From a virus, in IMG/VR virus record IMGVR_UViG_3300044960_000581, positions 1 through 21,217 of that record: 21,217 bases of DNA. The stretch is one strand, 5' to 3'. Shown in pieces: positions 3,442-20,626 of the stretch; the stretch's first letter is position 1, and every line of letters starts with the position of its first letter. Made by a program: the position numbers and the translations under genes. The notes beneath the pieces were generated by a model, which did not search any database, was not told the origin of the DNA, and saw only the letters and a list, made by a program, of their open reading frames with translations.

Positions 3442-5462
3442 TATGGACCCCAAATTATAGGTGTTTCAGAATCTTTAGTACCCCATTTTGACAATCCTTC
3501 ATCGCCTGGATAAAGTATTGTAATTACAAGCCTAATTCCTGTTGCGACAACCATTTTAATTAAATCTTCGGCATAAACTCGGCCTGCAACAACATCGGTT
3601 AAATAAAACGGAAGATCAGTCCCAGTTTTACTAATAATAACAGGGCCGTTTGAGGCAACCAAGGCAACATCGGTTCCTACTGGATGAGTATTCTTAATTC
3701 GATACGATGGGTTTAATAAAAGACTGTTTGAACTTGGTCTTGCTAGATATGGTATTGGCCCTTCTTGTCTTGACGTGCCATATCCTAAAATTATAAAGCC
3801 TTGTGAATCTGGGAAGTTATTAGCGTTTGCTACTTGAATAATCTTATTGGTTGTAGGACTAGCTTGTGCGGTAAGCGTAGAACCTTTATCTGAAATCGTA
3901 AATGGTTGGGAAGGATCGTATAAGTATGGGCCAAAGTTATCTGTAAATTGCTCATCAGGGTTTGGAACAGAAGTTGTAACTACAGATGCGTTAACTCCGG
4001 TTTGGTATACAGAAAAAGAAATACCTGGTACATTACCATTTGAATGTGGCGTTATAGCTCCGACATCGGCATTTGCAATTCTTGCTGTAGGTGTTGATGG
4101 ATTGGCTGCGGAAAAATGAATAGTTCCACTAACTTCTTTTGCTACTTCTTGTGCAACTTGTGTTGCAGTGGTAAGAGAGCTTATATTGATTCTAATCCCA
4201 GTCCTTCCTGGTATTGCTGGGTCAACAAGGTTTCCACCTGTTGTATCAAAATATACATAATACAATGTTGTAGGAGTATTTAAAAGAAAGTATTGTCCAT
4301 CTGATATTGCACCTGGGCTTGGGAATGTAATATCTGTAACTTGATTTTGACCGTCATTATATGTTGTAGTTGTTATAAAAGCTGAGCCATGGATGTGAGC
4401 CGCTCCTGCTTTATCTCGTCTTACAACTTTGGTTGTAGCGGGAATAAGTATTTCTAAAAGCCGTTGTTCAGCTTGATATACGGCGGCATATCTAGTTTTA
4501 TCCAAAATAGTCATTCGGTAAGGATTAAAAAACAAAACTCCATTATTGGTTCCCTGTACCGCTATTTCCGATACTCCGTTTGGATTTTCAATTTCAAAAT
4601 AAGCATTGTTTACACTTCCGCCACGAACATCTATAACTGTAAAAGTACCCCTATTTGCATTATTAAATCCTGGGCCGTAAATATTTACATAGTCGTTTTT
4701 TCTAACTTTACCAACCGATGGGTTGGCTCCACCACTCCACGTATATCGAATAATTCCGCCAGCTTGAGCAGAAACAGTCCATTGGGTTGAAGCAGTAGCA
4801 CTTGTAGGTCTTGCTTCTCTAAATAAAAGTACGTTTTGAGCCTTTCCACCTAGTACTTTAATTGAAGATGATGGACTTGGAGTATTAGACAATAATTCGA
4901 CAAATTTATTGGTTCCGTCATCTTTTACAACCGCAGAACCTATTTTACCTTGCTTTCTAATACTTCTGGTAATGGCATCGGCTACTTCTTGTGCCGTAGC
5001 TGTATTAATATTAGCAAATTGAGAAGATTCAAAAGTAATAGTTATAGGATCTGCGCCATCATATTGTATAATAAGTGTGTCGCCATCATCTAAGTTATAT
5101 GGTTCATAGGCGCCCGATATGGAAGTGGCACGAATTGCATCTTCACCAAACATTGTGCCTAAGATTTTTAAAATCAGGTCTCGTATTTGTTTTGTATTTA
5201 AAACGCTAATACCAATATCACGAAACACATCGTCTGAAAGACCTACTGTAGGTGGACGTATTAGGTTGGCATCGGCTAAACGCTGATCTAAGTATCTTCC
5301 CTCTGCAGTCGCAATATAAATTTGATCGTGAACTGCCTCTACGTTATCGATTAGCTTTTCAGTTCCAGAAGCAAGCGCCCATAACACTGCATCGGTATTA
5401 GGTCCATGAATAGCTGGATTTAAAAGCTTGCGAAGTCTTTTATATTCTTCTTCTCTAGCCAT
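3441..5462 (-). CDS. Baseplate wedge protein, tail-protein-I-like (gpI/gp7-type), with inserted beta modules
   Basis: The protein has 673 residues. Residues 1-115 are helical and look like the N-terminal part of tail protein I and related wedge proteins: a helix pair (LLNPAIHGPNTDAVLWALAS), then AEGRYLDQRLADANLIRPP and a following DDVFRDIGISVL segment. The rest is a string of beta modules: delta at about 126-210 (GDTLIIQYDG, PITITF), beta at about 236-312 (YTWSGGANP, NRGTFTVIDV), alpha at about 372-490 (ISDGQYFLL, YYVYFD) and gamma at about 553-605 (ILGYGTSRQEGPIPY). All four have relatives in the upstream J-like protein. The ATG overlaps the J stop as TAATG, so the two are translated together. 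P2 gpI is under 200 residues, so this copy is strongly enlarged. It most likely joins J in the wedge. Confidence 0.72.
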   Translation of the reverse strand: MAREEEYKRLRKLLNPAIHGPNTDAVLWALASGTEKLIDNVEAVHDQIYIATAEGRYLDQRLADANLIRPPTVGLSDDVFRDIGISVLNTKQIRDLILKILGTMFGEDAIRATSISGAYEPYNLDDGDTLIIQYDGADPITITFESSQFANINTATAQEVADAITRSIRKQGKIGSAVVKDDGTNKFVELLSNTPSPSSSIKVLGGKAQNVLLFREARPTSATASTQWTVSAQAGGIIRYTWSGGANPSVGKVRKNDYVNIYGPGFNNANRGTFTVIDVRGGSVNNAYFEIENPNGVSEIAVQGTNNGVLFFNPYRMTILDKTRYAAVYQAEQRLLEILIPATTKVVRRDKAGAAHIHGSAFITTTTYNDGQNQVTDITFPSPGAISDGQYFLLNTPTTLYYVYFDTTGGNLVDPAIPGRTGIRINISSLTTATQVAQEVAKEVSGTIHFSAANPSTPTARIANADVGAITPHSNGNVPGISFSVYQTGVNASVVTTSVPNPDEQFTDNFGPYLYDPSQPFTISDKGSTLTAQASPTTNKIIQVANANNFPDSQGFIILGYGTSRQEGPIPYLARPSSNSLLLNPSYRIKNTHPVGTDVALVASNGPVIISKTGTDLPFYLTDVVAGRVYAEDLIKMVVATGIRLVITILYPGDEGLSKWGTKDSETPIIWGP
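3995..4345 (-). repeat. Shared tail-protein module alpha, copy 3 (in the I-like protein)
   Basis: The stretch encodes VTDITFPSPGAISDGQYFLL, YYVYFDTTGG, PGRTGIRINISSLTTATQVA and a closing SFSVYQTG. It is the most diverged of the three copies, but the landmarks are in the same order and spacing as at 625-975 and 6352-6690. Confidence 0.75.
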
Positions 5463-8400
5463 TAGCCAATCTCACTTACAGCAATATCAGAGATGCTATC
5501 AATAATACGAGTTTTTTCACCAACATTTACTCTAATAATATCGTTTTGAGCATCGTATTGAGGCGAACTAATTGCAACAGCTCGTACACCTGGGATAGAG
5601 TTTACAGTGGCAACAATATCAGAAATTGCGATAGATTGACCAATTTCGTTACTATCAATAAGTGCTGCTACGTTATTTCTTACTTGCTCAACAATTTGAG
5701 TAAAAGGAATACCCGTTTCAATTCTTACATCAATAGATACCTGAATTCGCTTAGTTAAAGGCTCTTTAATAAAAATTTCAGCACCTGCAGCTGCAACACC
5801 TCGGTAAGTTGCGGCATCTCTTGGATCTCCATAAATAATTCTATTAGCTTCACCAATCAATCCTGTATGATACTTATAACTATCAATACCGCGTATTAAT
5901 TTAGTACTAAAAGATAGTTTATTCATTGTAGAAATTTGTACGCCAGCATCTTCATTGATCTTATTAGCGCCTTCTCTTCCGTAGAAAACTACATTACCTC
6001 TTAAATCATTTGATCCATCTGTAGAGATAAATTTAATCTTCTTATAAGCAGTGTATGGTTTTTGTTCTTGAACTAAAATAGATCCTTCATTTGGAGATAA
6101 AGGTCTTTCTTCTACCGATGCCATAGTTCCTGAAACTACAATAGTTTCTTGATCTAAAACCGATACAATTGGGAAAGTACCTTGCGAAGCATTTCCTAAA
6201 AAGTCACTAGAAACTATAAAAGAATCTCCAGCAACCGTTGCATCATATTCGCTAAATAGCATTGCTGGTCTATGGCATTCTAAAATATTAGAAATAGTGA
6301 TATTAGATTCAGATACAGCTTTAGGGTTGATCGCTTCTAAGAATGACCATTGACCTTTTTGAAGGATGGTAATAAAGAACGGTCCTGCAACGTTTACGTT
6401 TACAGCAGTTGTAGTTGGACCAAAACCTACGTTTTCTACTGTTACATGACTTCCCGAAGCAGTAGCAGTGAAATTGACGTTACCGTTTATGACGGCAGCA
6501 GTTGCTGCGGCTACTTGTGCTGCTGAGTCGGTTGAGTTAATATTAACTTGTAATGGGGTTTTTCCAGGCGGAGCTGGGTCGTTTAGAAGTCCGTCAATAT
6601 TATACCATACGTAATATTCAGTAGCATCTAGAGCTGAATTGATTAAAAAATATTGACCAGAAGTCATCTGGTTGCCGGCAGAACAAAGGATTTTATATTT
6701 TTCTTTTTTCTTTGGTTGGGCTTTAATAACCATAAACACGCCTTGGTTATTAGGAGCAAAATCTGTTCCAAAGGTAATCTCATCGCCCATTTTTGCATTT
6801 CCAAGGAATGGTTCAGTTCCGTTTCCGTTCCAAGATAGTTTGATAGTAGCATTTGATGCATCAACATTAAATTGAGTAGTAGCATCAAAACCTAAAGAAA
6901 TAAGGTTATCAGATAAAGTGACATATTCTTCTACAGAATTTGGCGCATCAATATAAATTGAGTTGTTAAATTCTTTAATAACTCGATAAGTTCCACGGTT
7001 TAATATATTAAATGGCGCTTTAATTTCTACAGTATCACCTTCTGTGACTTTAGTGGTACATACAAAATCACCAGCAGCAAAACTTCTACCTACCAATGTA
7101 GGGCTAGATACTGTTGCTCCAGGTGCACCTACGTTATTAACATAAGAAACAGCAATAGACGCGTTTGGAGTGGTTGCGGTAACAATAACAGTGTTTGCAG
7201 AAGCTTTTGCGGTAACTCCTGGTAAAGCACTAATAGCTGATGCTAAGTTAATAGCCGTAGCGGCTGCGTTTACACCTACCGTAAAATCAACGCCAGCTTG
7301 AAGTATGTTGCCATCTACTATAAAATCGTCGCCAGCAATATCACCATTATTAGTGATCGTAAATGTTGCTTGAGAGTATTCTGCAACCGCATTTGGATTT
7401 AGCACTCGTACAGTTTTTCCATCTAAGGAAACGCCTGTGACTAAGAATGTGCCATTGTTTTCACTTTCATCCATATTAGAGACTGTAATTAAATCTCCAA
7501 TGGACACTTCTGAAAACCTTGTATTTCCAGTTAAAATCCTGTATTCAGCATCACTTGTGCCGCTAACAGGATGTACGTTTAGAGTACCGCCTAATGAATC
7601 GTTTAATTCTACCGTTTTAGTAAAAGCGGGCGATGCGCCGACTCCATTCCAAGAAATACAAGTAAATTTACCTTGTTTTTCTACCTTGAAAGTTCGTCCT
7701 CTAGTTCTGACATGATGTCTTGGTTTTCCAAAGAATCGGTCTGTAGCTGTTCTGTTGGATAAAGAAATAGTAGATTGACCAACGCCTGGAGTTGCTGGGT
7801 CAATTCTTATTTTAGTTCCACTTTTGAAAAAGGTTTCTTTTGCTTGTTTGTTAGACGCTGTAAGTTTCACCCATTGATCAGAATGAAGTCCAGCAAGGCC
7901 AGATACATTAACTGATGTTTTAACAAGTGAATTATTTATGACAGAAGAATTGTCCAAAACAGGTGTTTCAGATCCATTAGCTAAGCCGCCAACAATTTGG
8001 ACAGCTCCTTGTCCACCCAAAGTTTTTGTGGCAATTTCTAACTTACCTTTTCTATTTACAATCTGCAAATTAGCATTAGTAGTAATGCCACTTACTGCCA
8101 ATTTTTTAGATAAACGTTCAACATGATCTAACGTAGTTGGTACAAGTACGACTTCTTCGCCTTGGTTAAAGGCATATCCTGGAGCAGAAGGTAGCGATAA
8201 GGGTTGTTTAAACGTAAATTGAGGTGAACCACCAAGGTTCGATGAAGCAATCCAATTGATACCGTCTAATAAAGCGATGCTTGTTGCTGAAAAGTTGAGC
8301 TCTTCTTCAGTTGAAAGAGGAATATTTCCAGAACCAGTTAATCCGGAATCATTAACAAGACTTGCTGTTACAAAATTTTGTAAATTTGCATTAACATAAG

Positions 8401-11400
8401 TTACAATTTCTTGGGCAGTTGTTGTTGCGCTATTATAGAAAGTAATTGCATTAGAAACTAAGGTTGCAACGTTTGTTTGCGCAACAGCTTGTCCGTGCGC
8501 TTTTTGAACGCTAAAACTTGTAGCGGTAGGAGTAAATCCTGGCTCGGTGCTAACTCGATACACGCCAGTATTAGCTTTGTCAAATTCGCTTTCTTGTGTA
8601 ATATTTACATACTCTCCACCTGAAAGAACGGATAGGTTTGGTGCAGTACCCGTTCCATTCCAAGTAAAGGTGACTTGATCAACGCCTGCAACAGGAGTGT
8701 TTGGAGTGATTGTAACATTCCATTCTGTTGTTCCGTCTATTGTAGTAGGAATTGCAACACCGCTTTTTAACGATATAGAAATATTAACTGTGTCATTAAC
8801 CTGTACAGAATGACCAATATTTTGGTTTGGAGAGCTTGGATATATGTATGAAATCCTAATGTTTTCGCCAGACCTTCCATATCGAACTGCTCTATATAAG
8901 ATAGCGTTTTGGTTTCCAGCTGGGTTAATAACATTTTTAGCTCTCATTAATGCTTTAAAATCTGAGAAATCAAATGAAGTGCCAAAATAAGTAGTAAACG
9001 GATTAGTTGGGCCGCCATCAATATCGTAAGCATTAAATGATGTTGGGTTTACAGCCAATGTCGTGTTTGTTTTTGCTACACGATACATTGGGATAGAAAA
9101 GGTTTTATTTGTAGGATCATTATCGATAATGGTTACAAGTTCATCTTCATGTCCAAAATCTAGAGGACTTACTGCATAATAACGATCATCTGGTCTTAAA
9201 CGTTTAATAAACGGATCTTGTTCCAAATTAAGTGTGGTTCCGCTATAAGATTTGACTAAAGTTTTTTCATTTGGAGATAAAGTATCTAATATATTTCCAA
9301 ACGGTTGAACATATCCAATTAAAAAGTTGGGGTCTAATGTAGGCGCAATTGCTGAAACTACTGAAGATAGATATGAATTTGGTGGAAGTGCTGCTGAGCC
9401 AGAAGATAGTTTAGAATGGAAAAATAAAGGAAACTCGCCTTCCGTAAATCCTGTTTCATAGTAAGCAATTAAAGATTCATTACTTGTATCCGACTGTCCA
9501 GCAGTAAACGACAGTTGTTTTCCGTTTTCATCAAACGTTACGATCATAACGTGTCCGTTTGATGATTTGGTTAATGTTTTAACTACTAAAAATTCATCAT
9601 TACTTGATGAAAACTCAACACCTTTAGCTTGGTCATTTAATTCTTCTGCAATATCACTTAATGTCTTTGTACCAGCTAGAACACGAAGTTTTTGAGGAAC
9701 CTCTTTAGTTCTAACTACAACAAAACCTTGATTAAAAATGATACCGCTTTCAACAACCGCTGCTGCATACTCTGCGGGTGTTACTTTAATATCTAAAGTA
9801 GCTCCAGATACAGCATGAACGCGTCCTTCCAATCTGTTTGGAGCGCTAAGTTCTTCACTCCATACAATTACATAATCACCGACTTGAACATTAGAAAATG
9901 CGGATGGGTCGTTGGATATATACCTAACAATGTTAGTAAAAGGTTTTGATACTGCAATTAAAGTATCTGATACTACACCAGTATTGATAATTTTAGCATT
10001 TTTGTCGTCAGATAAAACCCAAATATGAGCATTTCCAGTCAAAGTAATAACACCGCCCAAAATAGCATCAGATTCGATTCTTCCTTCTGTGTCGTCTGTT
10101 CCTGCCGTTAACTGATCGCTTGGTTCTAATGGTACATTTAGTTTAATCTGACCGGTGTTTCTAGAAAATTTATAATCGGCCTGTTTTCCTTGTGAAAACA
10201 ATCCTTTATTAACCGAAAACATTCCTTTAGATACCAAAGTAGAGCTTGGGTCAATAGACAAAGATGCTCTATTGGATGCGCCTAAGTTAGATACTAAATT
10301 GATCTGTTCACCCACAACAGATGCGGTTACTCCAGTAATTTTCTTGTTAAATACATTTACCCAAGATTCCAAACTGTTTGTAGAAGAAACGGATGGATAT
10401 GTTCCTTCAGCAATAAAATCGGCATCAGTGAATGTATAAGTAATGGGTGCGGTACCATCTACTGACAAAATTAACGTATCTCCACTTGCAATAGATGGTG
10501 ACCAAGCAACCTGCTCTTCGGTTTCAAGTCTTGCTTCATTTCCATCTTTAGATAGTGGTTTTTTGTTTTTAAATAAACGTAATGTTTGACTTTGGTTTGC
10601 AGGAAGACCTAAAATATCGGCAACATTTCTTCCTGTTGTAGGCTCTTTTGCTTGAATATCTTCATTAGATTCAGCTTTAGCAAATAAAACTACTTTGGTT
10701 CCACCAGCCGAGGTATTGGCTTGCCAATTTAAAGCACTGTTTCCGTTAATAGAAGCTACAACCTCATAGGCTGTTGCGCCACCTGGACTAACAAAATCAG
10801 AGTTTTGGAAAACATGCTGAGTTGTAATTCCACCAACAGAAATTGCTAAGGCATCGCCCCCAACAATATCAAAAGGTGCAGAAAGTTCTGAGAGTAAAAA
10901 TGCTTTTGCTACACTAGATTGTCTTCCGCCCGTTTCAAGCTGAAAATAAGTTTCTCCGCCTAATGCGCTATCTGCTAAGTACTCAATTCCTACGCCAGCT
11001 ACTTTTTGTTCGTATCCAGTTCCATCGTCAATATAAAGAACGGTTTCATCTACAGTATTTAAAATTTGAGCGCTAGTGATTGTAGCAGCTTCATCAGAAG
11101 GCATTGCTCCGATAACTGAATTTTGAATAGCTAAAGCGGTGCCCAATCCACGAGAAAGACGTGCTCGCTTGATTCTGATTCTAAGCTCTTCATCAGTTTC
11201 GGTATCGCGTCCAGTTTTAAATGGTCTAGTATTTTTAACTTTAGCGCCTGGAAATGGAGGAGAGGCGAATTCTTTAATTGCTCCAATTGGTACGTTTCCA
11301 ATAGACCCTGGTTGTTGAGCCGACACTTTAACGCCAGCTACTTCTGTTTCGCCATCTAAAATCAAAGCCGGTTGGGTTACAGAGAATGATACAGCAGGAG

Positions 11401-11998
11401 ATGCTCCAGAAGCTGGGGCTCGGACAATAGTTCCTACAGGGATATTTCTTATGCCGCCCTGAGATAAAATAACACTTTCATTAATGTTATGAAATTTGGT
11501 GGTAGGAGAAGATAGAGTAAGTTGCCAAAAACCGCCAATAAGATTAACTGAAGAATAAGGAATTGGACCTTCTACATTGGGAGTGCCGCGGCCAATGTAA
11601 ACACTTCCCGTAGGGGGAAATTCAGAACCGTCTGAAATCTTAATAACAGTAGAACCAATGTTAGGTGGTTTATCACCTGCATAAATTTTTGTGGCGATTT
11701 TTTTGAATGAAGTATCCGTTATAACTACTTCGCCAGAAGATACTCGTGCTGGGAGTTCGGTTAGCCCCTCATCCCTAGCAATACGACGCAAAGACTCGCC
11801 TTCAGCTCGGTCAACCGATTGATCTCGTAAAATTTGAAAAATGTCACCACTAGCTCGGGCTAAAGCAAGCGCTACAGTTTCAAATAAGCTAGTAGTAACC
11901 GAGCCTGTATTAATGTCATCAATTCCGGTTTTGGCCAGAAATGTTGACAACATATCGCCAAGGTATTGTTCATATGATCTAGGTTTTGGAGTTGCCAA
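5462..11998 (-). CDS. Giant baseplate J-like wedge protein (gp6/gp47 type) with about 1,600 residues of inserted modules
   Basis: The product has 2,178 residues, against roughly 300 in P2 gpJ and about 660 in T4 gp6. The N-terminus (1-300) is baseplate-J-like: a helical start with RAEGESLRRIARDEGLTE, beta strands, then GRDTETDEELRIRIKRARL at about 262-280. The C-terminal 190 residues are also J-like: ATYRGVAAAGAEIFIKEPL, then IQVSIDVRIETG and SIPGVRAVAISSPQ. Between them lie repeated beta modules: gamma at about 122-180, delta twice (about 381-480 and 504-585), beta about five times (near 1090-1180, 1440-1545, 1643-1698, 1706-1763 and 1912-1962) and alpha at about 1772-1882. The start is a TTG at 11998 with GAGGG 7 nt upstream; the frame has a stop 9 codons earlier and no ATG between. 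The protein should link wedges around the hub, with the insert probably exposed on the outside (inference). Confidence 0.85.
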   Translation of the reverse strand: MATPKPRSYEQYLGDMLSTFLAKTGIDDINTGSVTTSLFETVALALARASGDIFQILRDQSVDRAEGESLRRIARDEGLTELPARVSSGEVVITDTSFKKIATKIYAGDKPPNIGSTVIKISDGSEFPPTGSVYIGRGTPNVEGPIPYSSVNLIGGFWQLTLSSPTTKFHNINESVILSQGGIRNIPVGTIVRAPASGASPAVSFSVTQPALILDGETEVAGVKVSAQQPGSIGNVPIGAIKEFASPPFPGAKVKNTRPFKTGRDTETDEELRIRIKRARLSRGLGTALAIQNSVIGAMPSDEAATITSAQILNTVDETVLYIDDGTGYEQKVAGVGIEYLADSALGGETYFQLETGGRQSSVAKAFLLSELSAPFDIVGGDALAISVGGITTQHVFQNSDFVSPGGATAYEVVASINGNSALNWQANTSAGGTKVVLFAKAESNEDIQAKEPTTGRNVADILGLPANQSQTLRLFKNKKPLSKDGNEARLETEEQVAWSPSIASGDTLILSVDGTAPITYTFTDADFIAEGTYPSVSSTNSLESWVNVFNKKITGVTASVVGEQINLVSNLGASNRASLSIDPSSTLVSKGMFSVNKGLFSQGKQADYKFSRNTGQIKLNVPLEPSDQLTAGTDDTEGRIESDAILGGVITLTGNAHIWVLSDDKNAKIINTGVVSDTLIAVSKPFTNIVRYISNDPSAFSNVQVGDYVIVWSEELSAPNRLEGRVHAVSGATLDIKVTPAEYAAAVVESGIIFNQGFVVVRTKEVPQKLRVLAGTKTLSDIAEELNDQAKGVEFSSSNDEFLVVKTLTKSSNGHVMIVTFDENGKQLSFTAGQSDTSNESLIAYYETGFTEGEFPLFFHSKLSSGSAALPPNSYLSSVVSAIAPTLDPNFLIGYVQPFGNILDTLSPNEKTLVKSYSGTTLNLEQDPFIKRLRPDDRYYAVSPLDFGHEDELVTIIDNDPTNKTFSIPMYRVAKTNTTLAVNPTSFNAYDIDGGPTNPFTTYFGTSFDFSDFKALMRAKNVINPAGNQNAILYRAVRYGRSGENIRISYIYPSSPNQNIGHSVQVNDTVNISISLKSGVAIPTTIDGTTEWNVTITPNTPVAGVDQVTFTWNGTGTAPNLSVLSGGEYVNITQESEFDKANTGVYRVSTEPGFTPTATSFSVQKAHGQAVAQTNVATLVSNAITFYNSATTTAQEIVTYVNANLQNFVTASLVNDSGLTGSGNIPLSTEEELNFSATSIALLDGINWIASSNLGGSPQFTFKQPLSLPSAPGYAFNQGEEVVLVPTTLDHVERLSKKLAVSGITTNANLQIVNRKGKLEIATKTLGGQGAVQIVGGLANGSETPVLDNSSVINNSLVKTSVNVSGLAGLHSDQWVKLTASNKQAKETFFKSGTKIRIDPATPGVGQSTISLSNRTATDRFFGKPRHHVRTRGRTFKVEKQGKFTCISWNGVGASPAFTKTVELNDSLGGTLNVHPVSGTSDAEYRILTGNTRFSEVSIGDLITVSNMDESENNGTFLVTGVSLDGKTVRVLNPNAVAEYSQATFTITNNGDIAGDDFIVDGNILQAGVDFTVGVNAAATAINLASAISALPGVTAKASANTVIVTATTPNASIAVSYVNNVGAPGATVSSPTLVGRSFAAGDFVCTTKVTEGDTVEIKAPFNILNRGTYRVIKEFNNSIYIDAPNSVEEYVTLSDNLISLGFDATTQFNVDASNATIKLSWNGNGTEPFLGNAKMGDEITFGTDFAPNNQGVFMVIKAQPKKKEKYKILCSAGNQMTSGQYFLINSALDATEYYVWYNIDGLLNDPAPPGKTPLQVNINSTDSAAQVAAATAAVINGNVNFTATASGSHVTVENVGFGPTTTAVNVNVAGPFFITILQKGQWSFLEAINPKAVSESNITISNILECHRPAMLFSEYDATVAGDSFIVSSDFLGNASQGTFPIVSVLDQETIVVSGTMASVEERPLSPNEGSILVQEQKPYTAYKKIKFISTDGSNDLRGNVVFYGREGANKINEDAGVQISTMNKLSFSTKLIRGIDSYKYHTGLIGEANRIIYGDPRDAATYRGVAAAGAEIFIKEPLTKRIQVSIDVRIETGIPFTQIVEQVRNNVAALIDSNEIGQSIAISDIVATVNSIPGVRAVAISSPQYDAQNDIIRVNVGEKTRIIDSISDIAVSEIG
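6352..6690 (-). repeat. Shared tail-protein module alpha, copy 2 (in the J-like protein)
   Basis: The stretch encodes MTSGQYFLINSAL, EYYVWYNIDG, DPAPPGKTPLQVNINS, DSAAQVAAATAAVING and FFITILQKG. It is the closest relative of the fibre copy at 625-975. Confidence 0.8.
6710..8672 (-). repeat. Beta-module array inside the J-like protein (WNGxGxxP type)
   Basis: Three units carry the W-N-G-x-G-x-x-P landmark: FTWNGTGTAP near residue 1113, ISWNGVGASP near 1448 and LSWNGNGTEP near 1724. Each is followed by a GD or GE strand (GEYVNI, GDLITV, GDEITF) and then an N-x-G-x-(F/Y) strand (NTGVYRV, NNGTFLV, NQGVFMV). Two more units without the WNG part (NRGTYRV near 1660, SQGTFPI near 1935) belong to the same pattern. 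The I-like protein has one copy (YTWSGGANP...NRGTFTV) near 4525-4755. Confidence 0.65.
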
Positions 11999-12085: not shown

Positions 12086-14671
12086 TCAAATTTGGAAGCT
12101 TAACGGTAAGATACCGTTTCCATTGGCAATTCTTACGCTTACTTCTATAGTTAAGGTAGGGCCTTTTAAGGTTACCCTTAAGCGTTCAATATCTGAAAAT
12201 CTAGGGTCAGCAACGATTGTCTCCCTAACTTTATTATAAATATCAGTTGCAGTAAATTCTGCCGTACTTGTACCTGGACCAACGCCTGAGCCGTATTCTG
12301 GGTGCTTAATTAAAGACCTAATTGGGGTAGCAAATTTAAGTTTTAGGGCTTGTATAAGGTTGGTCATTCCACCCGCAAGCTTAATATCCTTGTAATTATC
12401 AAAAGCTATGTCACCTGAATCGGTCAACAATAAATCAACCTTTGACAATCCAACTAATGGGTCGGCTTTAAAAAGTGGAATTGGCCTAGCTCTGATATCG
12501 TTTGGAGCTTCTAAGTCGCTTGGTATAAATATTTGGTTAGACGAATTAACCGTACCTGGTAGATAGGCTTTAATTCTAGCTTGAGCTGAAGTGGTGTATA
12601 CATCTAAATTATCTAGGCCATCTACGGTAATTAGATGGTTAGTTTCATTGATGGTTTCTATATTTAGAATTCGCCTCATCGTTCTTGGTTGGTTATTTGA
12701 ATAAATTGTAATTATTTGATTTACATAAAGATTTTCTCTTGAGGCCACGGTAAATTGTCTTCCTTCAGCATTTGATAATAGATACCTTTCAAAGCCAGTT
12801 TCGTCAATATATGGACTTTTTAAAGCATTAAGTGTAGCTATTTCAATCCATCGATCTGGGTTTCCTAAATACCGCATTGCTATTTCTTCGATAGATAGAC
12901 CAAATGGTACTGGGACTATAAATTTAGAGGATGCGTTTTCGTAAGTAATTCCAGATTCAGCGGCAAGGGCTGCGACATATTCCGTGGCAGATTGAATTCT
13001 GCCATCATCTAGCTCCTGAGTTGCGGTTAAAATTTGTAAAGATTCGATCACTTCGTAAAGTTTATTTAAAATATCATATTCATCAATCGTCATCTCAGTT
13101 AGACGCTGAAAAGGTGCTGGCTTATCATAAATAGCGCTATATGTTTCATCCCCAGCACCATATAAGTTAGCGATTTGACTAGCTAATTCCGATATTTGAT
13201 TGGTTGCCTGAATAATATCATCTACCGTCAGGTTTTGAGCATCACCAATAATAGCGTCGATTTCATCTTGTTGATCTGGTGTTAGGGTAAGACTGCTTAA
13301 AGGAATAGAGTTAAAAAGTTCGTAATACTCTTCTGGATTTTCAAATATTTCGTTAGATGGGTCAGTAAGATCGGATAAAGCGGCGGCACCGCCTAACATG
13401 CTTAAAGTGGTAGCGGAAGCCGCCAATCCCTCTTTTAGGGATAGGCTTGCTTGTATTTTTTTAACTGCATCGGCCATTTTTTTGTTTTTAAATGAAATAG
13501 ACTGTAAGTTTCCAATAGCTTCTTTTATTCCGTTTTTATAATCATTAATAATTTGTCTAGGTAAATCAGCAACGGCCACAGGAATACCTGCAAGGTCTTT
13601 GACAAAAAGAGCGGTTTGTCGTAAAATATTGAGAGGAGTTTGAAAATCTCCTCTAACAGCAGTAATAAGGTTTAAAGCGCTAGCTGCAGTTCGCCTTGCT
13701 TCGTCGATACCATTTATAATCCTTTGTAAAAGATTTGGAGTAATTGCACTAAGCGATGGCGATGGGGAAGCGCTTACACTATTAATTTTAATCCTACGCC
13801 ATGCCTTAAATTGTATAGAATATCTAATTTCAGAAGGTTTTTCTACACTTTGCTGCCAAACAAATTGTTGCGGTGTGACGACAAATGCTTGATTTTGTTT
13901 AGGAATATCAAAAACCAATCGCCATCCAGCATTTTTTGGATCTTTTTTTGCTTCAGCGTATTGTTCCAGAAATTGGTCTAAACGCATTGCATAGGCATAG
14001 CCTGTACTTGACAAGCCTGTTGTACTTTTTTCTGGTTTTAATGCTGCCGGATGTTTACCAGATATTGTGTTAATAAATCTATTAAATTGACCTGCCAAAT
14101 TATTTGCAGCTTGTATTGTTCCAGAAAACAAAGTTTCAAGAATGCTTGGACTTCCTGGCGGAGAAGCCTTATTAGGTTTGTATGGCCAAACACCAAACGT
14201 GCCAGAGGCAGAAATAATCTTAAATTTTACACCGTTATGCTCTTCTACTATGCCTTTTAGTGTTGCTGAAACTTGGTTTGCAAACTGGGTTTGGATAGAA
14301 AGTTGCTGTGGAGTTATAGGAAGTATAAATTCCCATGTATTATCAAAGGGTTTAAAAGTAATTTGAAATTTATCTGGGGTTTGTGAAACTTTAATATCGG
14401 GTTCAGTTTTGCCAGCATTTTTGTTTGAAACAATGGCATTTCCTTTGTGAACGTCTACAACAACAAGCCTATAAGGATACAGTTTATCCCATCTAGAATT
14501 GTCAATCTCTATCGGTTCAAAAAAGGTATTTGTTTGTTTTTCCCAAGGTTTAGGTTGTCTGCTGGAAGATGTGGCGCCTTTATTGGTACCTGTTAATTCA
14601 GGAGCAGCGTCTTTGGATAAATTTTTAGTGGCGTCTGCAATGTTTATGTTTGGTGACCCTGGTTTGCTCAT
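12086..14671 (-). CDS. Baseplate wedge fusion: XkdP-like N-terminus, LysM, and gp25-like C-terminus
   Basis: The protein has 861 residues. After a Ser/Pro/Lys-rich start (1-60), residues about 100-290 hold two beta-rich segments (ITPQQLSIQTQ...ISASGTFGVWPY and GWRLVFDIP...RYSIQFKAWRRI), reminiscent of XkdP-type LysM tail proteins. Residues about 300-530 are helical. At about 575-630 the pattern VPFGLSIEEIAMRYLGNPDR followed by WIEIATLN is a LysM-like repeat of the type found in baseplate proteins, not a secreted wall binder. The last 120 residues form a gp25/GPW-type wedge domain: VDLLLTDSGDIAFD, LIKHPEYGSGVG and RVTLKGPTLTIEVSV. In many phages these are separate genes; here they are fused. 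The neighbouring J-like and hub genes agree with a wedge role. The ATG at 14671 has only a weak, distant GAGG. Confidence 0.83.
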   Translation of the reverse strand: MSKPGSPNINIADATKNLSKDAAPELTGTNKGATSSSRQPKPWEKQTNTFFEPIEIDNSRWDKLYPYRLVVVDVHKGNAIVSNKNAGKTEPDIKVSQTPDKFQITFKPFDNTWEFILPITPQQLSIQTQFANQVSATLKGIVEEHNGVKFKIISASGTFGVWPYKPNKASPPGSPSILETLFSGTIQAANNLAGQFNRFINTISGKHPAALKPEKSTTGLSSTGYAYAMRLDQFLEQYAEAKKDPKNAGWRLVFDIPKQNQAFVVTPQQFVWQQSVEKPSEIRYSIQFKAWRRIKINSVSASPSPSLSAITPNLLQRIINGIDEARRTAASALNLITAVRGDFQTPLNILRQTALFVKDLAGIPVAVADLPRQIINDYKNGIKEAIGNLQSISFKNKKMADAVKKIQASLSLKEGLAASATTLSMLGGAAALSDLTDPSNEIFENPEEYYELFNSIPLSSLTLTPDQQDEIDAIIGDAQNLTVDDIIQATNQISELASQIANLYGAGDETYSAIYDKPAPFQRLTEMTIDEYDILNKLYEVIESLQILTATQELDDGRIQSATEYVAALAAESGITYENASSKFIVPVPFGLSIEEIAMRYLGNPDRWIEIATLNALKSPYIDETGFERYLLSNAEGRQFTVASRENLYVNQIITIYSNNQPRTMRRILNIETINETNHLITVDGLDNLDVYTTSAQARIKAYLPGTVNSSNQIFIPSDLEAPNDIRARPIPLFKADPLVGLSKVDLLLTDSGDIAFDNYKDIKLAGGMTNLIQALKLKFATPIRSLIKHPEYGSGVGPGTSTAEFTATDIYNKVRETIVADPRFSDIERLRVTLKGPTLTIEVSVRIANGNGILPLSFQI
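12102..12118. other. Perfect 7-bp inverted repeat at the 3' end of the wedge fusion gene
   Basis: AACGGTA, AGA, TACCGTT form a perfect stem with a 3-nt loop, inside the last ten codons of the minus-strand gene. In the direction of transcription it is followed by AAGCTTCC, not by a T-run, so it is not a standard intrinsic terminator. It may still pause RNA polymerase or protect a 3' end. Confidence 0.4.
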
Positions 14672-14718: not shown

Positions 14719-14883
14719 ATGAACAATAGCTCGTTTTTATTGACTTTTTTGGTATCTGCATGTATCGGTTTTTCTGTATTTTTAGGGTATCGAGTTGGCT
14801 ATTTCATGGGTAGTTTGCCGAAAAAGCCGTTAAAACGAAAAAGGCCTATTTTTAGAATATTAAAAGGCGGAAAAAATGAATAA
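14719..14883 (+). CDS. 54-residue single-span membrane peptide
   Basis: ATG at 14719 to TAA at 14881-14883 encodes 54 residues. About residues 6-30 are strongly hydrophobic (FLLTFLVSACIGFSVFLGY), followed by a short turn and a very basic tail with KKPLKRKR. By the positive-inside rule the tail should face the cytoplasm. The gene overlaps the next one by 8 nt, and its last codons supply the GGCGGA ribosome site for the metalloprotease, so the two are probably co-translated. No clear SD lies before its own ATG. Small size and topology would suit a holin-like, antiholin-like or envelope accessory peptide, but no family is recognised. Confidence 0.6.
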   Translation: MNNSSFLLTFLVSACIGFSVFLGYRVGYFMGSLPKKPLKRKRPIFRILKGGKNE

Positions 14884-15424
14884 ATGGAAAAAACGATTTT
14901 TAATAGTTCTATTTTGCTTTTTAACAGCAGGTTTTGTGTCTTGTGCTACAAATGGTTGGATGCACAAGAAAATTTACAAGTACAGCTTAAAACCGTATGT
15001 TAAGGAATTTAGCGAAAGAAGCGGCATTCCAATGTCTAATTTAGAAACTATTGATTATTCTATAGTTTTGTTTCTTCCTGCCAATACTGCCGCACAATGT
15101 GTTATTCCTAAAATAAAAAGTGCAAGAAAAGCTATACAAGTTCGTTGGGATATATTTTTATTTTCAAGCGAATTGCAAAAGAAGGCTATAATATTTCATG
15201 AAATACTGCATTGTTATTGTGGTAGAAAACATATAATATTAAAAGGAAGCTACTGGGAAATGTTCGGGTGGACGTATAAAAAAACAAATAATAAAGGCGA
15301 TTGTCCATTGAGTATCATGTACCCATCTCTATTATCTTCAGAATGTTTAAAGCAAAACTGGGAAGAGTATATGGAAGAAGCGTTTTCTTTTTGCCCAAAA
15401 GATTTGTCTATTTTCTTTCGGTGA
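14876..15424 (+). CDS. Lipoprotein zinc metalloprotease, metzincin-like
   Basis: The product has 182 residues. It starts with a lysine-rich n-region (MNKWKKR), a hydrophobic core at 8-22 and FVSC with Cys23 as a probable lipidation site, so it should be exported and membrane-anchored. The zinc site is HEILHCYCGRKH at 108-119: H108 and H112 as ligands, E109 as catalytic base, H119 as third ligand, with a Gly at 116. SIMYP at 146-150 is placed where metzincins have the Met-turn. The third His is one residue further along than in the classical HExxHxxGxxH. Several cysteines (75, 113, 115, 143, 157, 173) could form disulfides. It runs against the flanking tail genes and follows the 54-aa membrane peptide. 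The substrate is unknown; host envelope proteins, wall-linked peptides or phage proteins are all possible. Confidence 0.75.
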   Translation: MNKWKKRFLIVLFCFLTAGFVSCATNGWMHKKIYKYSLKPYVKEFSERSGIPMSNLETIDYSIVLFLPANTAAQCVIPKIKSARKAIQVRWDIFLFSSELQKKAIIFHEILHCYCGRKHIILKGSYWEMFGWTYKKTNNKGDCPLSIMYPSLLSSECLKQNWEEYMEEAFSFCPKDLSIFFR

Positions 15425-15521
15425 AAGCTATCAAAAGAAGGCCGCCCAAAATCCCCACTGTGGCAGTAGCAATTAATACAATCGAAAAAATGTCTAAAGT
15501 TTGTTCCAATATGTCTGTCAT
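15408..15521 (-). CDS. 37-residue single-span membrane peptide coupled to the 458-aa gene
   Basis: ATG at 15521-15519 overlaps the TGA of the upstream gene as ATGA, and the frame ends at TAG (15408-15410). The product starts MTDILEQTLDIF, with acidic residues D3, E6 and D10, continues as one hydrophobic span of about 23 residues rich in Ile, Val, Leu and Gly, and ends in TERK. This suggests an N-out, C-in single-span peptide. The ATGA coupling, repeated at several junctions in this operon, is the main support for a real gene. Its last 17 bp overlap the 3' end of the converging metalloprotease gene. It is not long enough to classify; holin-like and inner-spanin-like roles are possible. Confidence 0.6.
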   Translation of the reverse strand: MTDILEQTLDIFSIVLIATATVGILGGLLLIAFTERK

Positions 15522-16894
15522 AGCTCTTTATACATCCTAGCAAGTTCTGATTCTCTATATTTAGATGAAACAGGCTGACCTAATACGATTCGATTTCCAA
15601 CAATAGCAGAAATTGTTCTAACAATCTCTTCTTGTGTTTCAGAAACAATATATACAGTATCTCCCACCGAAAATCCTGCAGAGTTTTTTACATGAATATT
15701 ATTTGTATTATTTGCTGGAGCAGCAAAAGCTGTGCAAGCTAATAATGATAAATATGTATTTTTAGCTGAGATAATATTATTTTTTAAATCGTTTTGAGCA
15801 TTTACAGCTCGATCATATCCTAAAAGATCAATTAAAGATCCGCCAAGGAGGGCTAAACGTAAATTTATAAATGTTGCTCGTTCAAAATAAAGACCTGATC
15901 CGGTTATAGAACCATCGCTTAGGTTTTGAGTGACAGAACCTAGATTATTAGTTAGTTGGGTAATTCGGGTTGCTATAAAAGACTCGCGAGCATTAATTGC
16001 TGCTTTTAATGCATTTAATTCGGTTGATCTTAGCTTTGTGGGTCCTAAAGACGATACTGGAAACGCAAAAAATCCAGCGCAAGTAGTTTGCCCGTGAGCA
16101 TTATTAAAGTTTGGATAAGCTTGCCATGTGTTAATTGCTGGTATTATAACAGAATTTATATTGTTTAATGCGATATTGTTTTGCGCTTGCCTAGTTGAAT
16201 TAAAATCGTTAGTGTAAATAAGGGCGGCTTCTGCGATTAAAAAGTTTTTATAATCTTGAACAGCAGTAACTAGGTTGTTTAAAGCAGTTACTACAGCAGG
16301 ATAAGTTGTTATATTATCAGGCGGTCCAGGTGTCCAAGTTCCGCCGTGTGAAGTACAATCCGTTTGAGTTAGATATGCTGGCAAGCTACAAAAACCATTA
16401 TAACAGGTTTGGCCAGTAGTTCGCTGAATATCTAAAAAAGTTTCGGCAGCAGTTATTGCGGCTTTTACAGCGTTAATTTTTGACTGTTCAGTGGGAGTAG
16501 TTCCTGGATATGCTTCGTTATTATCTTTACCTATTGCATATGTTCTAAGGTATGGTTTTGTTTTTGTCCAAACATTAGGGTTAATACTAGGCGGTGTTCC
16601 ACCAGGAACGTTTGGATAGTAAATATTTCCATAAACAAAATTAGCTGAATCAATATAATGCTGTTCAATTGTTTGAGTTCTAACGATTCCATCAAGTTGT
16701 GCTAATTCGTTCTGGTATGCATTAATTGCTAAAGTTCTTAATTCTAAAAGTGTTTTATGGCCTTCGTCTAGCTTCAAAGCTTTTTGTTTTTCTTGCAAAA
16801 GCTGTGCCTGAGATGCATCAAACGTAGCTAAAGTTTGATCAGCTTCCACAATTTTTTTTGTAAATGCAATTCTATCCTCTTTAGACAAAGCCAT
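15518..16894 (-). CDS. Probable virion structural protein with coiled coil, cysteine motif and C-terminal beta domain
   Basis: The protein has 458 residues and no family that I recognise with certainty. Residues 1-80 are helical with coiled-coil character. Residues 135-160, 195-260 and 285-385 are further helices, many with KAAI..AE patterns. A small cysteine insert at 160-190 has C164, C169 and C180 before GGTWTPG, a pattern I associate with structural proteins of environmental phages. The C-terminus (about 395-445) is a small beta domain with NSAGFSVGDTVYIVSE and IVGNRIVLGQPV, of the kind used as surface or adhesion modules in tail proteins. It sits between spike-side genes and the wedge genes, so a baseplate or fibre-accessory role is likely. 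It starts 6 nt after the previous stop, with a weak ribosome site. Confidence 0.6.
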   Translation of the reverse strand: MALSKEDRIAFTKKIVEADQTLATFDASQAQLLQEKQKALKLDEGHKTLLELRTLAINAYQNELAQLDGIVRTQTIEQHYIDSANFVYGNIYYPNVPGGTPPSINPNVWTKTKPYLRTYAIGKDNNEAYPGTTPTEQSKINAVKAAITAAETFLDIQRTTGQTCYNGFCSLPAYLTQTDCTSHGGTWTPGPPDNITTYPAVVTALNNLVTAVQDYKNFLIAEAALIYTNDFNSTRQAQNNIALNNINSVIIPAINTWQAYPNFNNAHGQTTCAGFFAFPVSSLGPTKLRSTELNALKAAINARESFIATRITQLTNNLGSVTQNLSDGSITGSGLYFERATFINLRLALLGGSLIDLLGYDRAVNAQNDLKNNIISAKNTYLSLLACTAFAAPANNTNNIHVKNSAGFSVGDTVYIVSETQEEIVRTISAIVGNRIVLGQPVSSKYRESELARMYKEL

Positions 16895-16900
16895 AATATA

Positions 16901-17170
16901 TCAATGTACTCGATATGGAATTAATTTTAGTGTTTCTAGGGCTTCCTTAGCTTGTTCTCTTTCTAAATCGTTTTTTGCGTTTTTATACGCTTCTTTCATA
17001 GAGTTTAGTAGACTTTTAAAAATTTCTTTGGCATCAGAATGATCAAAAATGTGCTCGCCGTTTATACAAACGTAATCGTTATAAGCTTCGATGCAGAATT
17101 TGTTAGCTTCTTTTTTTAAAATCTCTTTAAAATCTAAAGTTTTAATTAATTGATGTCTCATTTTCTTCAT
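16901..17170 (-). CDS. Small charged helical protein of unknown function
   Basis: I place the start at the ATG at 17170, not at the upstream start at 17224. The later ATG overlaps the previous stop as ATGA and has GGAG 10 nt upstream, whereas the earlier one would overlap the upstream gene by 58 bp. The product has 89 residues and is lysine- and glutamate-rich. Helices are expected at about 5-25 and 45-80 (DAKEIFKSLLNSMKEAYKNA and onward). A central part holds two cysteines (YVCINGEHIF and a nearby FCIEA). No family is recognised. Its place in the operon between the CPBP-like protease and the 458-aa protein suggests co-expression only. Confidence 0.6.
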   Translation of the reverse strand: MKKMRHQLIKTLDFKEILKKEANKFCIEAYNDYVCINGEHIFDHSDAKEIFKSLLNSMKEAYKNAKNDLEREQAKEALETLKLIPYRVH

Positions 17171-17676
17171 TGTAGCACAGCTCCAAGTATGAATAAAGAA
17201 GAAAAATATATTGTTACATCCCAAATTATATGCAACGACATTACCGTTCCAAGCCCATAATCTTTGGCAAATTTATAAGTCATAGGAACGTATATTAATG
17301 ATATAATAGCACCCTGTATTCCTTGATATGCATGACCTATGGAAAAAACAACTACAGACATTGGAAAAAACAAAAACTTTAAATATTTCGACCACTTAGT
17401 CCCTATTCTATCTAATAACAAAAGAGGTAGGGTGTGAAGCGCATCTTCTAAAAACACAATAAATAGGTCAGGCAAATTAACCATGCCTATAAATTCTAAC
17501 ATTCCTGGCGGAATATATTTTACGTAAGAAAAAAGTATAATCTTTAAAATGCAAGAAATTAGGATAAAGCAAAAACCTTTTAATAAAATTGACGCATGAA
17601 TGCGTAGAATTCTGGGGCTTAGCGATAAAGCCGCGCCTATAAATAAAGCTCCTAACATCTGCATTAAATTGGTCAT
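17167..17676 (-). CDS. CPBP/Abi-type intramembrane metalloprotease-like membrane protein
   Basis: The product has 169 residues and about five hydrophobic segments. It carries the CPBP (CAAX protease and bacteriocin-processing) signature in order: FLEDALH at 75-81, matching the EExxxR motif with E77-D78; FSIGHAYQG at 111-119, the FxxxH motif with the typical following AYQG; and HIIWD at 149-153, the HxxxN/D motif. E77, H115 and H149 would form the active site inside the membrane. The second Glu and the Arg of motif 1 are replaced by Asp and probably His81. The ATG overlaps the spike stop as ATGA, with AAGGA upstream, so it is made together with the spike. CPBP proteins include prenyl-protein proteases and bacteriocin immunity proteins, so a role in envelope change or exclusion of other phages is possible (inference). 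Confidence 0.68.
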   Translation of the reverse strand: MTNLMQMLGALFIGAALSLSPRILRIHASILLKGFCFILISCILKIILFSYVKYIPPGMLEFIGMVNLPDLFIVFLEDALHTLPLLLLDRIGTKWSKYLKFLFFPMSVVVFSIGHAYQGIQGAIISLIYVPMTYKFAKDYGLGTVMSLHIIWDVTIYFSSLFILGAVLQ

Positions 17677-18728
17677 TTTATAAATGTCCTTGTTGCAAAC
17701 GGGCCTATCATGGTAACCATAACAGGTGCCCCAAGATTTCCTACTCCAATACCTTTAGTACTTAGGGTTGGAGCAGGTGTTCCTCCTGGGCCGCCACAAA
17801 AAGTGAGGCCATCCAAAACCACTTGTGAACCCTTAAGTTTAACCAAGGAGGACGCTTCTACGTTAACTTGCGATGCTTTAACCATAGCATCACCTTGTGA
17901 TTGCAATTTAAATGATGCACATTCTATAGTTGCCGATCCGCTAGCTTTAACAAGCCATTCAGCCATTTTTTGAGACGTATTGCCTGATGATTCGGTATTA
18001 ATATTTGCTCCGGCTTTTAAACTAACATTTTCCTTGGCATCGATAGAGCCGCTCTTTTCAGCTGTAACAGAAAATACGCCATCTTTCTGAAGCCTTTGAG
18101 TAACACCTTTATTTTTTACTTGGAAGGAGCCATCTTTTTCAATATCTAAAGTAGTAACGCCTTGTGAAGAATCGATAGGTTTGCCATCATTATCTGTGGC
18201 GCCGTTAAAACTAAGTCTGCATGAGCCATCGGGTAGGACTTGTACTTCAACACCGTTGAATGCTCCAAATAATTGCTGTCCTTCCCCCTTAATTTTGGTT
18301 TTTCTTTCAGGATGATTTAGTCCACCTAAAATAATGGCAGAATCTGAATTGCCATTCAAACAAAGAAGTAGAACAATTGCTCCGTTTTGTTCATTCAAAT
18401 CTCTTTTATTGTTATTTTTTTGTTTTGTTTGCCCCCTTCGTTTAACTTCAAAATAATCTGCAATTGAACCTAAACTATCAACAGACAAACAGCGTTTGTA
18501 TGTAATTGGAGTGATGCCTCTATTTGAATCTTGTTCAATAACAACAACATCATATTCTGTAGAAATTTTGTTAATATTTTCTTCGCTATCTACTGGATAT
18601 ACTTTAGTAATAAATCCCGCTTTTAAAGAATGGTTAGCATAAGTTTTGTTAAAACCAGCTACTATAGACCGAGTGTCTACTCCTAATAATCCGTTTGGCA
18701 ATACAGTTCCGTTTGATAATCTATTCAT
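17673..18728 (-). CDS. Baseplate central spike protein (gp5/VgrG-like, OB fold plus beta-helix needle)
   Basis: The protein has 351 residues. Residues about 36-141 look like the OB-fold of phage spikes, with a Lys/Asn-rich insert (VKRRGQTKQKNNNKRD at about 95-110) and the closing strand DSAIILGGLNHPE. Residues about 190-310 are a series of short repeats typical of a needle beta-helix (GSFQVKNKG, GSIDAKENVSLKAGANIN, KASQVNVEASSLVKLKGSQV). The C-terminus (FCGGPGGTPAPTLSTKG, then GAPVMVTMIGP) probably caps the tip. No lysozyme domain like that of T4 gp5 is visible between the OB fold and the needle. The start overlaps the hub stop as ATGA, with AAAGGTGG upstream, so hub and spike are made together, as expected of direct partners. 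Confidence 0.82.
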   Translation of the reverse strand: MNRLSNGTVLPNGLLGVDTRSIVAGFNKTYANHSLKAGFITKVYPVDSEENINKISTEYDVVVIEQDSNRGITPITYKRCLSVDSLGSIADYFEVKRRGQTKQKNNNKRDLNEQNGAIVLLLCLNGNSDSAIILGGLNHPERKTKIKGEGQQLFGAFNGVEVQVLPDGSCRLSFNGATDNDGKPIDSSQGVTTLDIEKDGSFQVKNKGVTQRLQKDGVFSVTAEKSGSIDAKENVSLKAGANINTESSGNTSQKMAEWLVKASGSATIECASFKLQSQGDAMVKASQVNVEASSLVKLKGSQVVLDGLTFCGGPGGTPAPTLSTKGIGVGNLGAPVMVTMIGPFATRTFIK

Positions 18729-20626
18729 TTGCGACCACCTTTAGATTTTTTAGGGGTTGTAGATGTATTATCTTCTTCTTTTCTATTAGGTAGTGGTTTT
18801 CTTAAGCCAGCTGGAGTAAAGCTTTCTGTTGACATTGATCGTTTTGCACTTGGAGTGTCTCCGTTGTCTTCCCTTGCATAAGAAAACTGAGTATCGCTTA
18901 TTCCAGGAAGCAATCCATCTCGTGAGTAATCTTTTTTTACTTCATCTTGAATATCTATATTGTCCATTCCAGCATAAACAATACCGCGTTCGCCCGATCT
19001 AATATCAACACCATTACTTAATTCTAAAATAGTTTCAAATCTCTTTTTTCCATCTAGAGTACAAGAAGCTACATGCGTTACTGTTTCAATATGATATACT
19101 ACGTCATCTAATTCTAAATTGTCGCCAGGGGCTATTGGCTCTTCTATTCCTGCACATTTTATATGGCCATTCATTTTAAGATGTCCCCCCATAATAGAAT
19201 CGGCCATAAGGCTTGCCCAATATGGTGCTAGAGTGGATTGTTTGGTTGATTCTGTTGGAAAATCAAAATTATTGCTTATAATCCAAGGTCTTAGACCATT
19301 TCTTTTAATATCACCCTCATCTATTTTAAAATTTCCAAGCCTAATCTGTTCGCTCATTAAAAATCTAACATCTTGACCTATGTTAGTTCTTCCAAAAACC
19401 TGAACGTAATTAATTCTAGCAACCTCATCCCTTCCTAGGTTGAGATCGTAAATCATGGCGGGACTGATTCTCCATCTTGGTAAGTTTAAAAACCTTGTAA
19501 CAGCCGAACCCTTAAAGGATTCAGTGGTAAAAGGAATCTGTCTATAAGTTACTGTTGGCATAATTTTACCATCTGGATTCAATTTAAAACTTGCAAACAT
19601 TTCGTTTATTGGCAAATTTGCATATTGCTGTAACAACGACCAAGCTGTCACTTGGTTCCAATATTCAACCCTGATAAAGGTAGTGCCAGTACAAGGTTTA
19701 TTGGTTTGTAAAAATGAACCTGTAGTATTTTGTAAATTAGAAGGGTTTAATCCTTTAGCAAGCTCTTTTACAGAACCTCCAGCGTATTCTTGTATTCCAA
19801 ATATAAACCTATAAATATCTAATACAGATTTAGCATTTTTAATACCTAATAATTCGCCGACTAAAGATGGTATTAAAAATATAGAATTTGGACTTATAAC
19901 ATTTCCAGCTTTATCGGTTTTTCCCAAATCGCTAGGACCAGTTCCTAGACAAAGTTTAGCCAAGGTTTTTACAATTTCTTGAACATTTTGACCCTTTTTA
20001 GTAATCAAAGAATTGATAGATGCGCCAATTCTATCAAAAAATAACAAAGTTTTACCTTGTTGATCTGGCGGAATTACTTGATCGTTAAAATAAATAGAGT
20101 TATTTAACTCGGTCATCCCATATGCTTGTATTTGAAACATTAATTGTTTTATTCCAGTTTCTGGATTAATAGCAAGCATTTTTCTAACAGATTGAACCTT
20201 GAATACACCTTTAAAACCATCATGCTCGCCATTGATTGGTTGTCTATTTAATGCTCTTTCTGCAATTCTTTGAGCATAATCGTTCCAATCGACAATATTT
20301 AAAAAAACAAAATCACCTGGAGCAATTGCGGTTTCGTAATTAATATCTCCTGGCTTAAACATTGCCGACATCATGGGAGTATGAGTAGCTTTTGACTGTG
20401 TTGTCGTTACTTGAACACAATCATTAACAACAACCATCGGATCTTTTACTTGAAAACTGTCTGGAGCTCTCACATTAGAAGTATATCTATAAGTATCTCG
20501 ATTAGCCCATCTTACAAATGTTAAAACCCAAGCTGGACTAGTTTGATGAACCAGCCTTTCTTGGCCATCTTTATTCACTTTATATGATTTATAAGGTTTA
20601 ATATCCTTAACAAATGCTTTTGACAT
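18725..20626 (-). CDS. Baseplate hub protein (gp27/gpD-like)
   Basis: The product has 633 residues. The N-terminal half has the beta-rich pattern of gp27-type hubs (WVLTFVRWANRDTYRYTSNV, AIAPGDFVFLNIVDWNDYA, FKGVFKVQSVRKMLAINPE). After a helical middle, residues about 484-540 carry a second hub strand group (GHIKCAGIEEPIAPGDNLEL, VVYHIETVTHVAS, RFETILELSNGV), the late-gpD/gp27 layout that forms the pseudo-sixfold ring. The last 70 residues are Ser/Thr/Lys-rich and probably disordered, ending in KKSKGGRK. The gene lies directly before the spike and after a probable tape-measure end, as in many myoviruses. GGAT 7 nt before the ATG is the likely ribosome site, and the gap to the previous stop is 12 nt. 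Confidence 0.82.
   Translation of the reverse strand: MSKAFVKDIKPYKSYKVNKDGQERLVHQTSPAWVLTFVRWANRDTYRYTSNVRAPDSFQVKDPMVVVNDCVQVTTTQSKATHTPMMSAMFKPGDINYETAIAPGDFVFLNIVDWNDYAQRIAERALNRQPINGEHDGFKGVFKVQSVRKMLAINPETGIKQLMFQIQAYGMTELNNSIYFNDQVIPPDQQGKTLLFFDRIGASINSLITKKGQNVQEIVKTLAKLCLGTGPSDLGKTDKAGNVISPNSIFLIPSLVGELLGIKNAKSVLDIYRFIFGIQEYAGGSVKELAKGLNPSNLQNTTGSFLQTNKPCTGTTFIRVEYWNQVTAWSLLQQYANLPINEMFASFKLNPDGKIMPTVTYRQIPFTTESFKGSAVTRFLNLPRWRISPAMIYDLNLGRDEVARINYVQVFGRTNIGQDVRFLMSEQIRLGNFKIDEGDIKRNGLRPWIISNNFDFPTESTKQSTLAPYWASLMADSIMGGHLKMNGHIKCAGIEEPIAPGDNLELDDVVYHIETVTHVASCTLDGKKRFETILELSNGVDIRSGERGIVYAGMDNIDIQDEVKKDYSRDGLLPGISDTQFSYAREDNGDTPSAKRSMSTESFTPAGLRKPLPNRKEEDNTSTTPKKSKGGRK

Follow-up and report, generated by a model that had tools for sequence, protein, structure and literature searches.

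A probable CPBP-like intramembrane protease, apparently specific to phages, is encoded behind the contractile-tail spike and may serve superinfection exclusion

The closest described systems are the Rce1-like or CPBP proteases of Pfam family PF02517 (type II CAAX proteases, with MmRce1, 4cad). In the available excerpts of two papers, the CPBP motifs are given as EExxxR, FxxxH and HxxxN, and the acting residues of the myxosortase MrtX as E146, H188, H223 and N227 (PMC9298176, PMC11980579); the excerpt of the latter also states that MrtX cuts surface proteins beyond the lipidated cysteine (PMC11980579). CPBP proteins of bacteriocin clusters, such as SilX and SagE, adjoin an attack gene, and SilX carries EExxxQ, without the arginine, and itself conferred no immunity, according to the portion of text at hand (PMC9298176). 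On the phage side, according to an abstract, P22 SieA is an inner-membrane protein encoded by the phage that targets components of entering phages, and interference with the DNA delivery conduit has been proposed (PMC10883804).

The phage protein described here shares with the PF02517 enzymes the order and spacing of E-x, FxxxH and HxxxN or HxxxD in transmembrane helices. It differs from them in its length of 169 aa, in having ED rather than EE and no arginine at E+5, and in its place behind a tail spike; moreover, most of its phage relatives have a sub-threshold Pfam match or none. MrtX of Myxococcus is likewise an intramembrane glutamic protease acting through E, H, H and N, but it has EExxxR and HxxxN and a role in host sorting. 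In the bacteriocin clusters the partner is a peptide bacteriocin, whereas the partner of the phage family is a contractile-tail spike; the analogy with bacteriocin immunity is at most compatible with our observations. SieA differs in being expressed from the prophage, its abstract describes no protease, and the link to it is one of analogy (PMC10883804). A literature search of the open PMC library did not find a phage-encoded CPBP protein in a tail module.

The window, that is, the whole stretch of DNA analysed, is the virus record IMGVR_UViG_3300044960_000581 of 21,217 bases. A preliminary description had placed a CPBP-type protease gene in a baseplate operon and joined it to the spike gene by ATGA, and both statements hold: its neighbours are hub, spike, wedge and baseplate-J-like genes, and the overlap is found where it was read. 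The landmarks listed there are also present in order, with E77, D78, H115 and H149 correctly numbered and with the FSIGHAYQG and HIIWD stretches. The features are given below, with motif coordinates computed from the ORF start.

5462..11998, baseplate-J-like gene, among the baseplate neighbours of the protease
12086..14671, minus strand, gp25-like wedge or baseplate protein, 861 aa (PHROG 975, E 1.9e-24; Mx1 homologue 30%)
14876..15424, plus strand, convergent, lipoprotein-like zinc metallopeptidase, 182 aa, with HExxH...H and CPxSIMYP
15518..16894, minus strand, conserved tail-module gene, 458 aa, with weak gp8 similarity
16901..17170, minus strand, small conserved gene 3' of the protease, 89 aa, ATGA-coupled to it
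17167..17170, minus strand, ATGA overlap of the protease stop with the ATG of the 89-aa gene (DNA reads TCAT)
17167..17676, minus strand, CPBP-like intramembrane protease, 169 aa, ATG start, with E77-D78, F111-xxx-H115 and H149-xxx-D153
17218..17232, minus strand, motif 3, codons H149 to D153 (H and D invariant in 41/41 members)
17332..17346, minus strand, motif 2, codons F111 to H115 (F and H invariant in 41/41)
17443..17448, minus strand, motif 1, codons E77-D78 (invariant in 41/41)
17673..17676, minus strand, ATGA overlap of the spike stop (TGA) with the protease ATG (DNA reads TCAT)
17673..18728, minus strand, tail spike, gp5/VgrG-like, 351 aa, with weak baseplate profiles and a homologue in Mx1
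18725..20626, minus strand, baseplate hub, 633 aa (Mx1 homologue 31%, E 4e-67)

The gene at 18725..20626 is named the hub because of gene order, hub before spike being conserved among relatives. For the spike, a DUF2345 match under the cut-off was obtained in the homologue from locus L010. Five of six relatives of the metallopeptidase that were tried matched metallopeptidase profiles below the cut-off (PF18894 for four, SprT-like for one), and the position of this gene next to the wedge is conserved in many loci. The window also holds, amid minus-strand tail genes, a plus-strand ORF of 123 aa at 2651-3022, whose product carries four CxxC motifs and begins like a coiled coil.

No relatives came out of an IMG/VR scan that used the window protein, spike or hub as a single query, and tblastn against 50,697 phage records was negative for three family members, the window protein and those of L095 and L148. 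In the phage collection of isolates, the only relative of the hub was that of Myxococcus phage Mx1 (31% identity), which also supplied the best wedge match (30%); neither a PF02517 match nor a protease-family match was detected in its 169,621 bases. The route that succeeded led from Mx1 to L004 and then, through a wedge-protein alignment, to 59 IMG/VR loci, several of which have an ORF similar to the window protease after or near the spike. A protease alignment then gave 22 loci and a spike alignment 78, many of them sharing contigs. An iterated profile over all ORFs of 186 sequences yielded 41 distinct family members, 19-34% identical to the window protein in the case of the others, which come from IMG/VR contigs and from one phage-like contig of the MAG Deltaproteobacteria bacterium bog_1112. 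Genome-level family and Pfam searches covered 49 of the 59 wedge loci and Mx1, with L002 added; left out were L011, L012, L022, L026, L028, L032, L038, L044, L055 and L061 (short, copies, or beyond the limit of 50). The spike census comprised 99 spikes, with 61 distinct clade spikes above 260 bits and 38 below 206 bits. Among these 38, only L065, a cut-off copy of the L024 spike, carries the protease, and the other 37 have none.

The organism of the MAG contig falls under Myxococcota in NCBI ranks, and Mx1 infects Myxococcus. A cellular origin of the gene in the phylum of the MAG was considered and discarded, as the one positive among 58 genomes was G050, and the phage-like contig itself was its sole source. 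The GC content is 37% in the window and spans 33 to 57% in the clade loci; therefore, no host was assigned. In L004, a distant relative, a canonical CPBP protease with EExxxR lies at 2962-3411 (plus strand, 66 bits). It was rejected as an orthologue of the window protease, being upstream of the tail genes and scoring E 0.089 with the family profile, which suggests a separate acquisition and that the wider phage group gained CPBP genes more than once. L004 also contains at 807-1289 (plus strand) an ORF with HELGHxxGLKHH...C..C..FC..C, which resembles matrixin or archaemetzincin, both Pfam matches being under the cut-off.

The assignment of the window protein to the CPBP type is supported by profile, motifs and predicted fold, and on these grounds we regard it as very probable. 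Searched alone in Pfam, the protein matched only PF02517, and weakly (E 0.0014; 19.3 bits for a cut-off of 22.4); it had no match in PHROGs or NCBIfam. Across the family, PF02517 was matched by 17 of the 41 members at E<=0.01 (best 3.1e-6), besides one stray TraX match. When nine records with a member were searched, seven matched PF02517, with G004, G005 and G008 at or over the cut-off. None of the 41 members matched PHROGs, and NCBIfam returned two single weak hits, YddG and Mrt_core (NF040914, E 0.0095). In hhalign against 24 canonical CPBPs, motifs 2 and 3 aligned in register (P 0.011, probability 4%), with P values of 0.48-0.87 for five column shuffles and 0.64 for the reversed control. 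When the L010 member was aligned to the profile of these 24 proteins, its ED fell on EE, at a low score. Sequence searches of the PDB with the window protein, a 7-member profile, the 41-member profile and the L004 protein found no CPBP chain.

The positions singled out for mutation in the preliminary description, E77, H115 and H149, proved constant among the homologues. Indeed, the invariant columns of the family are exactly six (E77, D78, F111, H115, H149 and D153) among the 154 columns filled in at least 39 of the 41 rows. The motif order E[ED]..FxxxH..HxxxN/D was present in all 41 members, whereas none of 28 other distinct ORFs from the 186 sequences (at least 120 aa, at least three predicted transmembrane segments) had it. 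Motif 1 has E first and D as the second acid in every member, motif 2 is FxxxH and motif 3 is HxxxD throughout. The arginine of EExxxR is absent, and position 82, where it would stand, is mostly G, V, S, A, T or I. As judged from sequence, the protein thus looks like a catalytically intact member of a novel phage branch of the CPBP (Rce1-like) glutamic intramembrane proteases, and the family is apparently a new, phage-specific one.

An AlphaFold (AF2) model of the window protein built with the 41 rows reached a pLDDT of 96.1 and a pTM of 0.89. In VIA-align, the best match of both models was Methanococcus Rce1 (MmRce1, 4cad), with Z of 7.7 and 7.5 and runners-up at 5.5 and 5.4, a Z near 7.5 being ordinary for helical models according to the tool's own note; the alignment at 7.5 covers 151 residues at 5.3 A. 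Foldseek gave no significant match in the PDB or BFVD, with 4cad at E 2.1 and 3.7. Six transmembrane helices are predicted, probably in the host inner membrane, with the N and C ends outside. Lysine plus arginine amount to 1.95, 2.95 and 2.05 in loops 1, 3 and 5 against 0.95, 0.05 and 0.20 in loops 2 and 4 and the C-terminus; the positive-inside rule would therefore place loops 1, 3 and 5 in the cytoplasm and both termini outside. This predicted topology would bring E77, where TM3 starts, and H115, where TM4 ends, close to the periplasmic side, and we infer that the active site faces the periplasm.

The protease is placed behind the spike and co-inherited with it. In 41 of the 61 clade loci it follows the spike; 7 of these 41 overlap the spike, 23 in all lie within 150 nt, and the rest are up to 4,145 nt away, structural-looking genes or inserts intervening in the distant placements. 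In G008, G014 and G017, where the hub-spike module stands apart from the wedge, the protease is on the hub-spike side. Spike and protease distances are correlated (r 0.67, 0/999 permutations), which may reflect linkage and shared descent alone. The intervening sequences are of several kinds. Inserts that are endonuclease-like or unassigned occur in L024 (7032-7763), L099 (6276-6866), L158 (8902-9717) and L124 (7604-8323), and some may be of GIY-YIG or HNH type. A structural-looking ORF separates a shorter spike from the protease in one subclade (L102 7240-7956, with similar ORFs in L098, L100 and L104), and another kind occupies the gap in L185, L108 and L151; the two of these structural-looking genes that were tried had no Pfam match.

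In the remaining 20 of the 61 loci, the protease is absent near the spike, in two of them for want of sequence, and in one, G010, it is found elsewhere in the record. Records of 150-168 kb without the protease include G028, G052, G060, G062 and G065, none of them certified complete. On the spike tree of 59 rows, from which L159 and L163 were excluded for having too little sequence after the spike, protease presence needs 12 changes, at least 10 of them forced by the starred branches, in a count that is blind to gain versus loss. Among gene families present in at least four loci from 4.5 kb before to 6.5 kb after the spike, none clearly covaries with the protease; accordingly, the idea of a structural gene dependent on the protease was dropped. 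Near the spike, the cluster of the 89-aa gene occurs in 27 of the 41 protease-bearing loci against 13 of the 20 others. In close pairs, which are non-independent, protease identity was below that of the spike in 40/40, the hub in 36/37 and the wedge in 39/39; compared with the metallopeptidase, the divergence was equal (0.42 against 0.42; protease lower in 19/37).

In clade loci without the protease, its slot is usually just empty, and another small ORF with predicted transmembrane segments is seen only in L112, L165 and L170. L112 and L091 share 84-87% DNA identity around the slot, which in L091 holds the protease and in L112 an unrelated 73-aa ORF with two transmembrane segments (7910-8131, plus strand). 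This ORF has no convincing relative among the ORFs of the sequences compared, and a decayed copy of the protease in L112 was rejected, as the DNA similarity was not above chance.

The probable periplasmic orientation, the association with the spike, the frequent absence and the fast divergence are more readily reconciled with a conflict role than with virion building, and this conflict-like behaviour leads us to rank exclusion first, host envelope cleavage second and maturation third. We tentatively propose a non-essential envelope protease, most likely for superinfection exclusion. Taken together, a phage branch of CPBP proteases engaged in exclusion is the best overall explanation, although we would put it somewhat below an even chance. 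On the mechanism proposed for Rce1 and MrtX, E77 and H115 would activate a water, and H149 and D153 would hold the oxyanion. In the infected cell, and this is the least certain step, the enzyme would cut a membrane-inserted protein at the periplasmic side. Its likeliest target would be a protein that a related superinfecting phage uses for entry, such as the tape measure or a tail-tip protein on its way into the inner membrane, followed by a host envelope protein; cleavage of the former would protect the infected cell from sibling or rival phages. Exclusion genes are expected early in infection, and the placement with the spike suggests late expression, which is at odds with that timing.

Fast divergence and gain or loss are likewise compatible with enzymes directed at the host and with membrane genes under weak selection. 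A host-directed protease that cleaves inner-membrane or lipid-anchored surface proteins (a receptor, a stress sensor or a lipoprotein) in late remodelling, possibly together with the convergent lipoprotein metallopeptidase, is a rather doubtful alternative to exclusion. It draws on the predicted periplasm-side active site, comparable with MrtX in the available excerpt (PMC11980579), and on the conserved envelope-type metallopeptidase next door with its equally fast divergence; however, the metallopeptidase also occurs without the protease (11 of 20 such loci, against 32 of 41 with it), and the tie to the spike is left unexplained. An enzyme of virion maturation or tail assembly, which would trim a protein of the spike, the hub or the tape measure at the membrane, would fit the placement with the spike, the translational coupling to it in the window and the co-inheritance. 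Nevertheless, relatives keep the same hub, spike and wedge families without the protease, including the 150-168 kb records, so that processing of a core virion protein is less likely, and the structural families show no covariation; we consider this role improbable. A CPBP-fold adaptor without catalytic activity, binding a partner in the membrane as SpdC or Abx1 are reported to do, has precedent in bacterial CPBP proteins that work without the catalytic motif, according to the excerpt available (PMC9298176). However, the catalytic positions are the sole invariant ones in the family, which argues against a pure adaptor, as it would not need them, and makes this reading very unlikely. Least likely of all is that the protein is no CPBP but another kind of six-helix membrane enzyme, whose E-D, FxxxH and HxxxD pattern resembles theirs: the weak profile and profile-profile scores, the missing arginine and the non-significant Foldseek result speak for it, whereas the three records that reach or exceed the Pfam cut-off, the first rank of Rce1 in both VIA comparisons, and the order and spacing of the motifs speak against it.

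Phages use small proteins to block or remodel the host membrane, and an intramembrane-class protease tied to the contractile tail spike would be a new phage tool. Selection on this family is strong at six catalytic residues, yet it is absent from PHROGs, and it offers compact CPBP-like enzymes (about 160-200 aa) for biochemistry. A more specific and, in our estimate, unlikely version of the exclusion proposal is a spike-immunity pair in free phages, in which the spike would be made together with a periplasm-facing intramembrane protease that destroys the membrane-inserted entry proteins of siblings or rivals. If true, such a pair would correspond in phages to VgrG-linked immunity and would exclude superinfecting phages by proteolysis.
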